From a virus: DNA of 64,000 nt. The translations under genes were made by a program, and so were the position numbers. The first letter of the stretch is position 1. Each line of letters begins with the position of its first letter. The stretch lies in the IMG/VR virus record IMGVR_UViG_3300020122_000238, positions 1 through 64,000 of that record; one strand, written 5' to 3'. The notes under the pieces were generated by a model that ran no database searches, had not been told where the DNA came from, and saw only the letters and a list, made by a program, of their open reading frames with translations. This document shows, in pieces, positions 45,652 to 63,787 of this stretch.

Positions 45652-46533
45652 ATGAACAACCAGGTTTCCAACGAGCTGAAGCAGCAAATCATCAGCGAGT
45701 ACATCAAGACGGCCGCCGGCCGTGCAAAGCTCGCTGCGTCGATGATCCAGCCCCTTCGGCTGCGTCGTGACTACACCGCGGTCGGTCGCAAGACCTTCCT
45801 CGTCGAGCAGCTACCGGATGGAGCGTTGCCGATCTATGACAAGGACCCCGACGTCACGGCCTTCGTGGTCGGCGAGGAGGGTCAGAACATCCTCGCGATC
45901 CAGAAGCCGCGTCGGGTCATCTTCCCGCTGTTTGAGATCGCCTCGAACCCCGAGATCCCGCTCACGCAGATCAAGGAGCGTCGCTTCGACCTCATCGAGC
46001 GTTCGCAGGACCTCGCGAAGGCCCAGATCCAGGCCGCCGAAGATGAGCGCGTCTTCACGGTTCTCGACTCGATCGCCGTTTCCGGCTTCGACACCCTCCC
46101 CGGGCAGTCGAACCCTGACGTCGCGGTGGTGGCCCCCATCTCTCCGGCCGTCCTCGCGGACGCGTTCGCCGAGATCGAGCGTCACGACCTTCGGGTTGCC
46201 CGGATCTACATGAACGCGGTCGACTACGCGGACATCCGCAAGTTCGGCCGTGACATCCTGGACATCGAGAGCCAGGCCACCCTCCTCAAGACTGGCCTCC
46301 AGGCCGTCCTCTGGGGTGCGCAGATCATCACGTCGAGGCTCGTCCCCGTCGGGTTCGTCTACATCTGCGCGGAGCCCGAGAACTTCGGTCGCTTCCCGGT
46401 CCGCACGGAGCTGACGGTCCTCTCGGCCGACGATCCCAAGGCCCGCACGATCGGCTTCTCGTGTTTTGAGAACGTCGGCATTGGTGCCTTCAACCCCAAG
46501 GCACTCACTCGGGTGGTTGTGCAGCGTTTCTAG
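45652..46533 (+). CDS. Major capsid protein, HK97 fold
   Basis: 293 residues with the N-arm, E-loop region (VEQLPDGALPIYDKDPDVTA), long spine helix (IERSQDLAKAQIQAAEDERV) and A-domain segment VARIYMNAVDYADIRKFG...WGAQIITSRLVP typical of HK97-type capsids in myoviruses. tgaggagcaaaagagg precedes ATG. A bidirectional terminator follows. Part of its A-domain (about 172-242) is duplicated in the fusion protein at 57241. Confidence 0.9.
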   Translation: MNNQVSNELKQQIISEYIKTAAGRAKLAASMIQPLRLRRDYTAVGRKTFLVEQLPDGALPIYDKDPDVTAFVVGEEGQNILAIQKPRRVIFPLFEIASNPEIPLTQIKERRFDLIERSQDLAKAQIQAAEDERVFTVLDSIAVSGFDTLPGQSNPDVAVVAPISPAVLADAFAEIERHDLRVARIYMNAVDYADIRKFGRDILDIESQATLLKTGLQAVLWGAQIITSRLVPVGFVYICAEPENFGRFPVRTELTVLSADDPKARTIGFSCFENVGIGAFNPKALTRVVVQRF

Positions 46534-56324: not shown

Positions 56325-57224
56325 ATGGGCACAGCATTCTTCCGAGGACAACAGCTCGGGCGTAGCGATCTCAACATCTTCCTGGTCAACGCCTCGGGCA
56401 CGCCCACCAACGCCGCGGAGATCACGTACGCCCTCCTCGACTTCACGACGGGAGGGGAAGTCGTTGTGGGGCCTCCTCGAAGGAACCCCGCGAACCCTTC
56501 GGTTGGGGAGTACTACGCCAGCATCGTCATCCCCCTCGACGCCAATATCGGTTCTTATCGGATTCGTTGGACGATACGCGAGATAGTGGGGGCTCCCATT
56601 CAGCAGGTCGTCCAGGAGTTCGAGGTGGTGGACAAGACGACCGTGGGGGAGTGGGGCCCAGCGACGTACACCCTCATCGAGAGGGACCTCATGCGCCGGC
56701 TGCGCATGCTCCTTCGCGACAACAACCCGGATCGGAACTACCACTTCAGGCCGCCGTCACGGGAGACCACCGTGAAGCAGTACAACCGGGTCTTCGGGTA
56801 CATCTGGGAGGACGAAGAGCTGCAAGAGTTCATCGAGCGTTCGATGGACATGGTCATCGCCTCGCCTCCGAGGACCCCATTCGCGAACATCGACCAGATG
56901 TGCCGGGCTCGCCCCGAGTGGCGAACGCTGCTCCTCACGGGAGGAATGATCCATGCCCTCCAGGCCGTTCGCATCAACTGGATTGCCGACGAGTTCGATT
57001 ACTCGATTGGCGGGGTATCCCTTAACCTCGACAAGGCCAGCAAGTATGAGGGGGCTCTTCAGTCCTCTACCGAGCAGTTCGACAAGCAGCTCGAAAAGGC
57101 CAAGGCCACGGTCAACTACGTTCGAGGTCTCCAACAACCCAAATTCGGGGTTGGTATTCGGTCGGCCTTCGGCCCCTATACCGGAGCTGGCGTCCTGACC
57201 CCCAGGAAGTTCACGGGATTCTGA
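56325..57224 (+). CDS. Virion structural protein, 299 aa
   Basis: N-terminal domain (1-110) is a beta-sandwich with EITYALLDFTTGGEVVVG, PSVGEYYASIVIPLDA and SYRIRWT, shared with the gene at 55228; the C-terminal part is helical (LIERDLMRRLRMLLRDNNPD, KYEGALQSSTEQFDKQLEKA). The domain order suggests a neck or tail-connector component, but I recognise no named family. Confidence 0.7.
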   Translation: MGTAFFRGQQLGRSDLNIFLVNASGTPTNAAEITYALLDFTTGGEVVVGPPRRNPANPSVGEYYASIVIPLDANIGSYRIRWTIREIVGAPIQQVVQEFEVVDKTTVGEWGPATYTLIERDLMRRLRMLLRDNNPDRNYHFRPPSRETTVKQYNRVFGYIWEDEELQEFIERSMDMVIASPPRTPFANIDQMCRARPEWRTLLLTGGMIHALQAVRINWIADEFDYSIGGVSLNLDKASKYEGALQSSTEQFDKQLEKAKATVNYVRGLQQPKFGVGIRSAFGPYTGAGVLTPRKFTGF

Positions 57225-57240
57225 TCCCAGGAGAAATCAC

Positions 57241-58149
57241 ATGGCATACGATCTAAATCACATCTTCACGTACCACCGTCCCACTGCGGATCAGCTCCCG
57301 AAGTACGAGATGATCCGAGATGCAGCGAAGACTTTCGCCTCGGTCGTTCTCGCGTGTACTCCCGCTGGGGAGGACCAGACGACGGCCATTCGGCACATCA
57401 GGGATGCGGTCATGACCGCCAACGCGGCCATCGCTTTGAAGGGCGTCCTGACCAAGGGTGAGACCTTGCTGAAGGCTCTGTCTAGCAAGGTCTATGCGTC
57501 CATCGAGCGGGATGATGTCCGTGTTGCTCGGCTCTACATCAACAACGAAGAGTACGTGACTCTCCGAACGGAGTGCTTGGCATCGTTCGATAGGACGTCC
57601 AACCGAGCAATCATTGAGGCAGGCATCATGGGGAGTCTGTTGGGCGCTCAGGTATACATCTCCGAAGCTGTTCCTCCGGGCTTCGCTTGTGGATTTGCGG
57701 ACGACGCCGACTTTCCCACCCTTGTGATCACTCCGGAGCTGATCCAGACGAAGCTCGTGAACCTCTGCGACTATGGGGATGCGGTTTCGGTATACCCCCG
57801 GCCGGATGCTGTGGCCCGAAAAGCGGCTGTGATGAAGGCCTACGCGGAGAGGGTCTTCGCTTCCCATGGGGCTGCGGGCAATAAGGTCGAGCACATCTAC
57901 ATGAACGCGTACGAGTATGCGGACATCCGCAAGTTCGGACACGATGTCCTGGAGATCGAAAGCCAAGCTATCATCCTCCGCAAGGGGATCATGGGGGTCT
58001 TCCACGGCGCACAGGTCCACGTCTCGCGGGAGGTTCCTCGCGGACAGGTGGCTGTTTTCGCGACGGGGGACGTGATCCCTGAGAAGGTCTCGGAGATGAA
58101 GTTCTTCACGCTGATGTACCCCGAGGAGCAGGGGTCGGCAGCGGTGTAG
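57241..58149 (+). CDS. Acb2/Tad1-type hairpin domain fused to duplicated capsid fragment
   Basis: Residues 5-69 (HIFTYHRPTADQLPKYEMIR ... AIRHIRDAVMTANAAIALKG) match the Acb2/Tad1 hairpin domain, a helical family whose studied members bind cyclic di-, tri- or gcADPR-type nucleotides and so block CBASS or Thoeris. Residues 84-160 and 203-280 are two copies of the A-domain segment of this phage's major capsid protein: VARLYINNEEYVTLR...LLGAQVYISEAVPPG and VEHIYMNAYEYADIRKFG...FHGAQVHVSREVPRG, against VARIYMNAVDYADIRKFG...WGAQIITSRLVP. A 20-base stretch (gcggacatccgcaagttcgg) is identical to the capsid gene. ggagaaat precedes ATG. Confidence 0.8.
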   Translation: MAYDLNHIFTYHRPTADQLPKYEMIRDAAKTFASVVLACTPAGEDQTTAIRHIRDAVMTANAAIALKGVLTKGETLLKALSSKVYASIERDDVRVARLYINNEEYVTLRTECLASFDRTSNRAIIEAGIMGSLLGAQVYISEAVPPGFACGFADDADFPTLVITPELIQTKLVNLCDYGDAVSVYPRPDAVARKAAVMKAYAERVFASHGAAGNKVEHIYMNAYEYADIRKFGHDVLEIESQAIILRKGIMGVFHGAQVHVSREVPRGQVAVFATGDVIPEKVSEMKFFTLMYPEEQGSAAV

Positions 58150-58158
58150 GGACGGAGC

Positions 58159-58536
58159 ATGCCCGCCTTTGTTCACCCCTGTATTTGCGGTTTTCTAGGG
58201 CGGGGCCTGAATCTGATGAAGCGGCATCGAGCCCGGTGCCGCTTGTGGAAGGACCGCCCGGACCCGCGGGGATTGTCGATCCAGCGCCGGAAGGCGGCTC
58301 TTCTTCGGGGTGGTGAGCCCAAATGCGCGGAGTGCCATAACCGGGTTGATGGCCATCTCTCGACATGCTCCCAGTCGTTGTCGGAGAAAGCACGCAAGGA
58401 TGCGCTTCTCCGCAACGGGATCAACCCGGCACAGTTCGAGGTGTTCCTTCGTCTCCTGGCGAAGAGGTACGAGGACGGGGGTCAGTTCAGCGACAGGGGA
58501 ACGGCCGGCGGCTTGAGCACCGCGCTGTCGAAGTAG
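58159..58536 (+). CDS. Zinc-knuckle hypothetical protein, 125 aa
   Basis: Two candidate zinc knuckles: CICGFLGRGLNLMKRHRARC (C-x-C...H-x3-C) near the N-terminus and CAECHNRVDGHLSTC in the middle, followed by a helical end. Probably nucleic-acid or protein binding. Its 3' end overlaps the convergent minus-strand gene by 55 bases. Confidence 0.6.
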   Translation: MPAFVHPCICGFLGRGLNLMKRHRARCRLWKDRPDPRGLSIQRRKAALLRGGEPKCAECHNRVDGHLSTCSQSLSEKARKDALLRNGINPAQFEVFLRLLAKRYEDGGQFSDRGTAGGLSTALSK

Positions 58537-58780: not shown

Positions 58781-59068
58781 ATGGAAATGAGTAACGAAAC
58801 CGAGAAGAAGCTCACCGTGAACGACCCGGTCGATGCTGCCACCCTCAAGCACCTCGAAGAAGTGGACGGGGCTCGCAAGATGCTCGCGGCCCAGCTCCTC
58901 GAACTGGAGGAAGAGAAGATCCGCCTCCTCGTCGCCGCTCGCCCACTTCGAGATGAGCGGGACAAGGTCTTCCAGAAGATCCTCATGGATCGGGGTCTAC
59001 CCCCGGACTTCCCTGTGGATGTTGACGAGACGGGGAAGCTCTTTCCTTTGAAGCCCCTTCCGAAGTAG
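58781..59068 (+). CDS. Small coiled-coil protein, 95 aa
   Basis: Helical middle (AATLKHLEEVDGARKMLAAQ; LLELEEEKIRLLVAARPLRD) and Pro-rich end. ATG 58781 or 58787. Probably a virion-assembly helper; not recognised. Confidence 0.65.
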   Translation: MEMSNETEKKLTVNDPVDAATLKHLEEVDGARKMLAAQLLELEEEKIRLLVAARPLRDERDKVFQKILMDRGLPPDFPVDVDETGKLFPLKPLPK

Positions 59069-63070: not shown

Positions 63071-63787
63071 ATGCGTCAAGGAGATCCGGAGCTACCTGAG
63101 CGAGAAGAGAGCGAACATGCGGAGGGGATCTTTGCAATGTGGCACGACCCCACGATGTATGATCCCTTCCAACACGGGCCTCCCTATCTTCCTGAGTCAA
63201 AGTCTCGAACGCCTGTGACCGCGGGGCAGAAGGAGGCGGATGCTCCGCTCATCATTCTGTCCCAGATCCTCCAGAAATTCGCAGCCGATTACGGGGGTGC
63301 GCCTCTTTCGGAGCTGGCGGCGATTCTCGCGTTCCTTCGAGCAGAGGCCATGGTTCACCAGTCTCACCACTGGCAGACCCGAGGGACGACGTTCTATGGG
63401 GATCATCTCCTCTACGACCGGCTTTATGACGACATCCAGAAGCTCATCGATCGCGTGGCAGAGCGGGCCGTTGGAGCTGGGCATCACGTTCTCGCCCACC
63501 CCATGTTGCATGCCTACCATGCGGCGGTTCTCGTTCGAGTCATGTATGAGGGGGCTCCCCTCGACCCTTCTCCGAGCGACTACGCTCTCCTCAGCTTGAG
63601 GATGGTGCATCGGTTTCTCGCTTTTGAGAAGATGGTCTACGCCATCCTCGAAGAACGCGGCCAGCTTTCCCACGGGACCGACAATCTCCTCCAGGAGATC
63701 GCCGACAAGCACGAGGAGCACATCTACGTTCTGAAACAACGAACCCGAACAGCGTCGTACGACCGTCGGGATATGGCAGTCAAATGA
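63071..63787 (+). CDS. Dps-like ferritin, 238 aa
   Basis: Residues 75-225 form a four-helix bundle with the Dps signature HHWQTRGTTFYGDH...LIDRVAERAVGAG. The four ferroxidase residues of E. coli Dps (His51, His63, Asp78, Glu82) map to His100, His112, Asp127 and Glu131 with identical spacing. Dps oxidises iron and shields DNA from peroxide. The first 60 residues are an added acidic N-terminal tail. Overlaps the next gene by the ATGA type. Confidence 0.82.
   Translation: MRQGDPELPEREESEHAEGIFAMWHDPTMYDPFQHGPPYLPESKSRTPVTAGQKEADAPLIILSQILQKFAADYGGAPLSELAAILAFLRAEAMVHQSHHWQTRGTTFYGDHLLYDRLYDDIQKLIDRVAERAVGAGHHVLAHPMLHAYHAAVLVRVMYEGAPLDPSPSDYALLSLRMVHRFLAFEKMVYAILEERGQLSHGTDNLLQEIADKHEEHIYVLKQRTRTASYDRRDMAVK

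Follow-up and report, generated by a model that had tools for sequence, protein, structure and literature searches.

To our knowledge, the phage sponges known to date are small free proteins. Acb2 (T4 Vs.4; PaMx33 gp24) is a free protein of ~90 aa, and Vs.4, a proven sponge, forms a hexamer with three cGAMP molecules that are contacted by Y8, H11, K23, S74, R79 and F82, with L29, F33, A66, A73 and A77 in the interface (PMC10097602). In Tad1, an N-terminal beta-sheet domain precedes the helices (PMC12043709), and phiKZ, a jumbo phage, carries a Tad1 that it injects (PMC13282480). On the capsid side, the A-domain of the HK97 fold occurs apart from a shell in the Family 4 (A-domain) encapsulins (PF08967), which are archaeal or bacterial and associated with enzymes (PMC8346489). 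Free A-domain proteins are thus known, as are free-standing hairpin sponges. Their combination, which we describe here, is not: our literature search turned up no sponge with a capsid domain attached, in line with the original prediction, which knew of none on a capsid-like scaffold.

The window analysed here covers the opening 64 kb of an IMG/VR virus record of 275,300 bases that belongs to a huge bacteriophage. The gene and its parts are:

57241..58149, + strand: fusion gene of a hairpin and two capsid A-domains, an ORF of 302 aa (P0001)
57229..57233, + strand: ribosome-binding site AGGAG of this gene, 7 nt before the ATG
57268..57435, + strand: Acb2/Tad1 hairpin domain, residues 10-65 (PF24729, E 3e-11; model helices)
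57436..57486, + strand: linker helix, residues 66-82, of low confidence (pLDDT ~45-50 at residues 67-91)
57487..57732, + strand: capsid A-domain copy A, residues 83-164 (major capsid protein profile, i-E 3e-13 to 9e-13)
57853..58071, + strand: capsid A-domain copy B, residues 205-277 (same profile, i-E 2e-19 to 4e-18; pLDDT 75-84)

P0001 is a genuine, conserved and unusual fusion. Chance matches as the source of its domain assignments are ruled out by the E-values and by an orthologue under selection.

Results

An N-terminal hairpin of the Acb2/Tad1 family

Residues 10-65 of P0001 match PF24729 at 43.8 bits (E 3e-11), against a Pfam gathering cut-off of 27, which bears out the N-terminal Acb2/Tad1 hairpin of the original prediction; this is the sole PF24729 match in the whole phage record. 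The gathering threshold is also passed by the orthologue (49.0 bits) and by P0002 (28.5 bits), a fusion protein from a second phage, and T4 Vs.4 is in the same family (E 7e-20). The hairpin profile further matches the solved relative 'Acb2 homolog 43' (9ptq, six chains) at E 3e-5, while the Tad1 PDB chains match at E 0.02, that is, by a superfamily motif in common. The best PHROGs of P0001, 1454 and 31113, both without an assigned function, match its hairpin at ~1e-14, whereas the Vs.4 homologues constitute PHROG 717 (PMC10097602).

We compared the pocket using the Vs.4 contacts of PMC10097602. Three alignment modes pair Y11 and R26 of P0001 with Vs.4 Y8 and K23, retain the helix-cap threonine as T15 and align A49, A56 and A60 with the hexamer-interface alanines A66, A73 and A77; a hand alignment that had paired Y8 and H11 with F9 and H12 was superseded by these computed alignments. 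Four Vs.4 contacts are changed in P0001 (H11 to P14, S74 to V57, R79 to A62 and F82 to A65), and in P0002 the stacking tyrosine is replaced by leucine. The hairpin assembly therefore looks conserved, and a pocket is plausible, though for a different ligand.

P0001 thus shares with Acb2 the PF24729 hairpin, the tyrosine and basic pocket positions and the alanine hexamer interface, but it adds 230 residues of capsid-derived sequence. Because the contacts and the PHROG differ, we regard it as a PF24729 member by profile and not as an Acb2 orthologue. Nor is it a Tad1, with which it has the superfamily motif in common: only nine residues precede its hairpin match, leaving no N-terminal beta domain, and, unlike Tad1, it carries extra domains after the hairpin. 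The proven sponge phiKZ gp184 (Tad1; L342 13470-14162) is not recognised by PF24729, hence the Pfam model overlooks some members.

Two A-domain copies related to the phage's own capsid

The parent family of the two copies is that of the major capsid protein, whose gene lies 10.7 kb upstream of the fusion gene:

45652..46533, + strand: major capsid protein (phrog_2522, E 6e-52; NF042927, E 5e-43)
46186..46386, + strand: core of the capsid A-domain, ~residues 179-245 (from alignment)

This capsid protein is 82% identical to that of the uncultured phage record LR745208.1 and 39% identical to phage G gp27; the Bacillus phage G gp27/phrog_2522 capsids are the nearest characterised capsid relatives, with A-domain homology to P0001. 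We searched 20,892 ORFs with an A-domain profile made from 66 capsid proteins of related phages, trimmed to the A-domain and with the fusion proteins left out. It matched P0001 at 83-149 (i-E 3e-13) and at 214-274 (i-E 2e-19) and found a single copy in P0002 (i-E 5e-5); no other non-capsid ORF among the 20,892 matched. The full-length capsid profile and hhalign agree on two copies (hhalign identity 33% and 50%; 33-55% identity to the capsid overall), in which the A-domain core residues N, G, A, S, P and G are retained. A sequence search of solved structures also matched P0001 to phage G gp27 (PDB 6wkk, E 3e-5).

The capsid profile aligns to P0001 over positions 182-264 of 305 only. The capsid-derived segment comprises the A-domain and the end of the preceding helix, and homology past the A-domain is not significant. 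Unlike the gp27/phrog_2522 capsids, P0001 therefore has the A-domain only, twice, and the N-arm, E-loop and P-domain of the HK97 capsid fold are absent from the profile match. Judged by its sequence, P0001 is not a capsid protein. It resembles the Family 4 encapsulins in having an HK97 A-domain apart from a shell; those proteins, however, have no hairpin fusion (PMC8346489), and PF08967 is not among the Pfam matches of P0001.

Age of the copies and selection

The original prediction had described the region as a tandem duplicate of a piece of the capsid A-domain with a 20-base identical stretch. The two A-domain copies are real and the identity is present (57919-57938 equals 46228-46247), but the copies are ancient or fast-diverged, lie outside the capsid clade and comprise the A-domain alone, and the stretch is no evidence of recent copying. 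Identical residues use the same codon in 19/34 cases, against 15.5 expected from codon usage, so that protein conservation and codon usage account for the 20-base match. When placed in a tree among diverse capsids, the copies join the clade of their own phage's capsid as opposed to Tunturi-type capsids (97/94), and both branch outside every member of that clade, on long branches; the placement of P0002, on a very long branch, is unreliable. MAFFT misaligned the sets in which hairpin and capsid rows were mixed in large numbers, and these alignments were excluded. The codon comparison and the tree speak against the copies having arisen recently by tandem duplication of the capsid gene, and we reject that origin.

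A syntenic orthologue of the fusion gene, 83% identical, is found in two IMG/VR contigs (L001 and L002, identical over the compared 20.9 kb) and is under purifying selection, with an overall dN/dS of 0.33. Conservation is highest in the hairpin (91% identity, dN/dS 0.14), followed in identity by copy B (87%, dN/dS 0.51) and copy A (73%, dN/dS 0.36). The capsid copies evolve fast, at a dN/dS of about 0.4, whereas most neighbouring genes have values of 0.03-0.15 and a few reach 0.35. For the same phage pair, the capsid gene has 0 replacement and 29 silent changes, against ~58 and ~40 in the copies (Fisher p 7e-10). Together, the dN/dS values and replacement counts indicate that the copies are still coding and constrained in their fold, yet released from the constraints on the capsid.

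A second lineage and the distribution of the fusion

Does the fusion occur outside this phage lineage? P0002, a protein of 172 aa from a 528,957-base huge-phage record, combines the hairpin with one A-domain. Its gene lies 67 kb from its own capsid gene, in an unrelated, non-structural locus among GroEL-like (chaperone), DNA-metabolism/replication and methyltransferase genes, names that come from reading the ORFs, without a profile search. After the hairpin, P0002 scores 77 against copy A, where the shuffle maximum was 44, and its A-domain scores 96 against copy B and 74 against the capsid. The distance from the last glycine of the hairpin to the asparagine of the A-domain is 33 residues in both P0001 and P0002. 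This shared junction spacing and the similarity after the hairpin show that the fusion is old; a single ancient fusion event is the simplest account. The end of the P0002 gene is overlapped by 4 nt by an ORF of 132 aa (L098 1043-1441, - strand), which may encode a partner of P0002.

A hairpin above the cut-off is absent from 26 of the 29 searched records with the same capsid, the carriers being L001, L002 and the record of P0002, and every such hairpin in the searched phages of the capsid clade is joined to an A-domain. None of the best 80 other IMG/VR hairpin loci or of the cultured-phage examples carries an A-domain, and those hairpin proteins are nearly all free-standing or short-tailed. 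Among 84,980 cellular genomes scanned there was no relative, and plasmids gave one match, to the hairpin only. Apart from the window, the fusion carriers found in these capped scans, which included fragmentary records, came from three adjacent IMG sample numbers; the known range is therefore narrow.

Accessory cargo in a structural array

The genes at 42-63 kb all lie on one strand and form a structural array, in which the fusion gene is flanked by:

56325..57224, + strand: p299, conserved structural-array gene upstream of the fusion (followed by p95 in relatives)
58159..58536, + strand: Cys/His-rich neighbour of 125 aa downstream, patchy in relatives
58781..59068, + strand: p95, conserved, directly after p299 in relatives without the fusion

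Since p299 directly abuts p95 in the relatives, the fusion gene must have been inserted between the two as cargo, and so must the small Cys/His-rich gene. The fusion gene is thus accessory (moron-like) cargo in a late structural array, and is presumably expressed late.

Two further features of the array were observed. The p299 homologues are split, with parts ~0.6-1.6 kb apart, in several huge-phage relatives (G010, G011, G014, G017, G020, G023, G026 and G032), mostly after residue ~131, which suggests insertion of an intron, an intein or a homing endonuclease. At 63071-63784, a ferritin-like protein (PF00210, E 1.5e-5) is encoded within the array.

Structure model

An earlier model of P0001 (pLDDT 54.7) was set aside as too weak; the model used here, from 35 aligned rows, has a mean pLDDT of 60.8, that is, low confidence (copy B 75-84, copy A ~60, hairpin 54-68). 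The hairpin is modelled as two long helices, 19-39 and 44-67, at a pLDDT of only 54-68, and the identical A-domain order of strands and helices occurs twice. A fold search of the PDB gave mostly HK97 capsid proteins as top matches (NF5, T4 gp24, PhiTE, HK97, lambda), none below E 0.001, and a weak match to the archaeal A-domain-only protein 2pk8 (TM 0.58 by target, probability 0.57, E 1). BFVD yielded matches to annotated hairpin proteins, to capsids (phage G gp27 among them) and to uncharacterised phage proteins of ~100 aa. The model is consistent with the sequence evidence and adds little independent weight.

Several BFVD matches have 109-146 aa: A0A6J5RWA2, A0A2H4IBH4 and A0A2H4IAS8 (Erwinia phage Y3), and S5VZG9 (phage PaBG). 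All are uncharacterised and probably match the A-domain part of the model; phages may therefore also encode A-domain proteins that stand alone.

Discussion

We tentatively favour, as a reading that falls just short of probable, that P0001 is a late-made sponge of a nucleotide signal, the capsid-derived part of which would be a binding or scaffold module and not a shell subunit. The N-terminal hairpin would probably assemble into an oligomer like Acb2-type hairpins, hold a nucleotide immune messenger of the CBASS or Thoeris type and so shield the host cell during the late phase of infection. The two A-domains would have been recruited from the stem of the capsid lineage of their own phage, and may serve for binding or as a scaffold that keeps its fold while its surface changes. 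By family membership, the most likely function, and a plausible one, is to sequester a nucleotide immune signal. Counting against the sponge reading are the late gene position, which is atypical for counter-defence, the changed Vs.4 contacts, the P0002 hairpin without the stacking tyrosine and the low confidence of the whole-protein model. A shell role is disfavoured by the lost shell-building parts (N-arm, E-loop and P-domain) and by copies that diverge while the capsid stays unchanged; the suggestion of the original prediction that the protein might enter the capsid is, for a shell subunit, unlikely.

The A-domains could also, as in Family 4 encapsulins, add no more than bulk or extra oligomerisation and have nothing to do with the capsid. 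The retained core residues fit this, as does the resemblance of the model to 2pk8 and to the ~100-aa phage proteins, but the 2pk8 matches are weak (E 1), and we regard it as a possible if doubtful account. It is rather unlikely that the A-domains dock the hairpin on or in the capsid for delivery with the DNA: the gene lies within the structural array behind a good ribosome-binding site, and a jumbo phage, phiKZ, injects Tad1 (PMC13282480) from a gene, gp184, annotated as structural, but the shell-lattice parts are missing, rapid divergence from an unchanging capsid speaks against lattice contacts, and the single-copy P0002 is encoded in a non-structural region by replication and chaperone genes. 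Loss of messenger binding in favour of another task, for instance in head assembly, seems unlikely to a similar degree. The lost Vs.4 contacts and the late structural location would agree with it, but the hairpin is the best conserved part of the protein, and, as 26 of 29 searched capsid-sharing records have no family match above the cut-off, it is not an essential head factor.

Could the A-domains instead serve as decoys that occupy a capsid-recognising host sensor, with the hairpin soaking up the messenger of that sensor? This is conceivable, since the major head protein is what triggers the Thoeris proteins ThsB1/ThsB2 (PMC12578639) and capsid mutation lets phages without acb2 escape CBASS (PMC10419184). 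The A-domain copies change fast where capsid and hairpin do not, and the constant joining of hairpin and A-domain in the capsid clade would also suit a decoy. However, in the one case studied the sensor contacts depend on the E-loop and P-loop (PMC12578639), both missing from P0001, and not on the A-domain; between the copies and the present-day capsid, 45-67% of positions differ, and the rapid change of the copies may equally reflect relaxed constraint. We consider a decoy improbable, and the full form of the idea, a two-in-one counter-defence protein co-expressed with the capsid that pairs a decoy of a sensor-recognised capsid region with a messenger sponge, a long shot.

Under the favoured sponge reading, sponge and capsid modules kept together in two huge-phage lineages would show the reuse of shell pieces in counter-defence, and the combination suggests a novel means by which phages may dampen bacterial immunity. 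As at least one Thoeris system senses capsid protein and capsid mutations free phages without acb2 from CBASS, P0001 offers a direct handle on the joint countering of capsid sensing and messenger signalling.

Hairpin-only genes were also seen next to the portal gene of Gordonia phage Schomber (L135 1489-1704) and near the terminase gene of Arthrobacter phage Jasmine (L137 1396-1695); hairpin genes thus recur beside structural genes.
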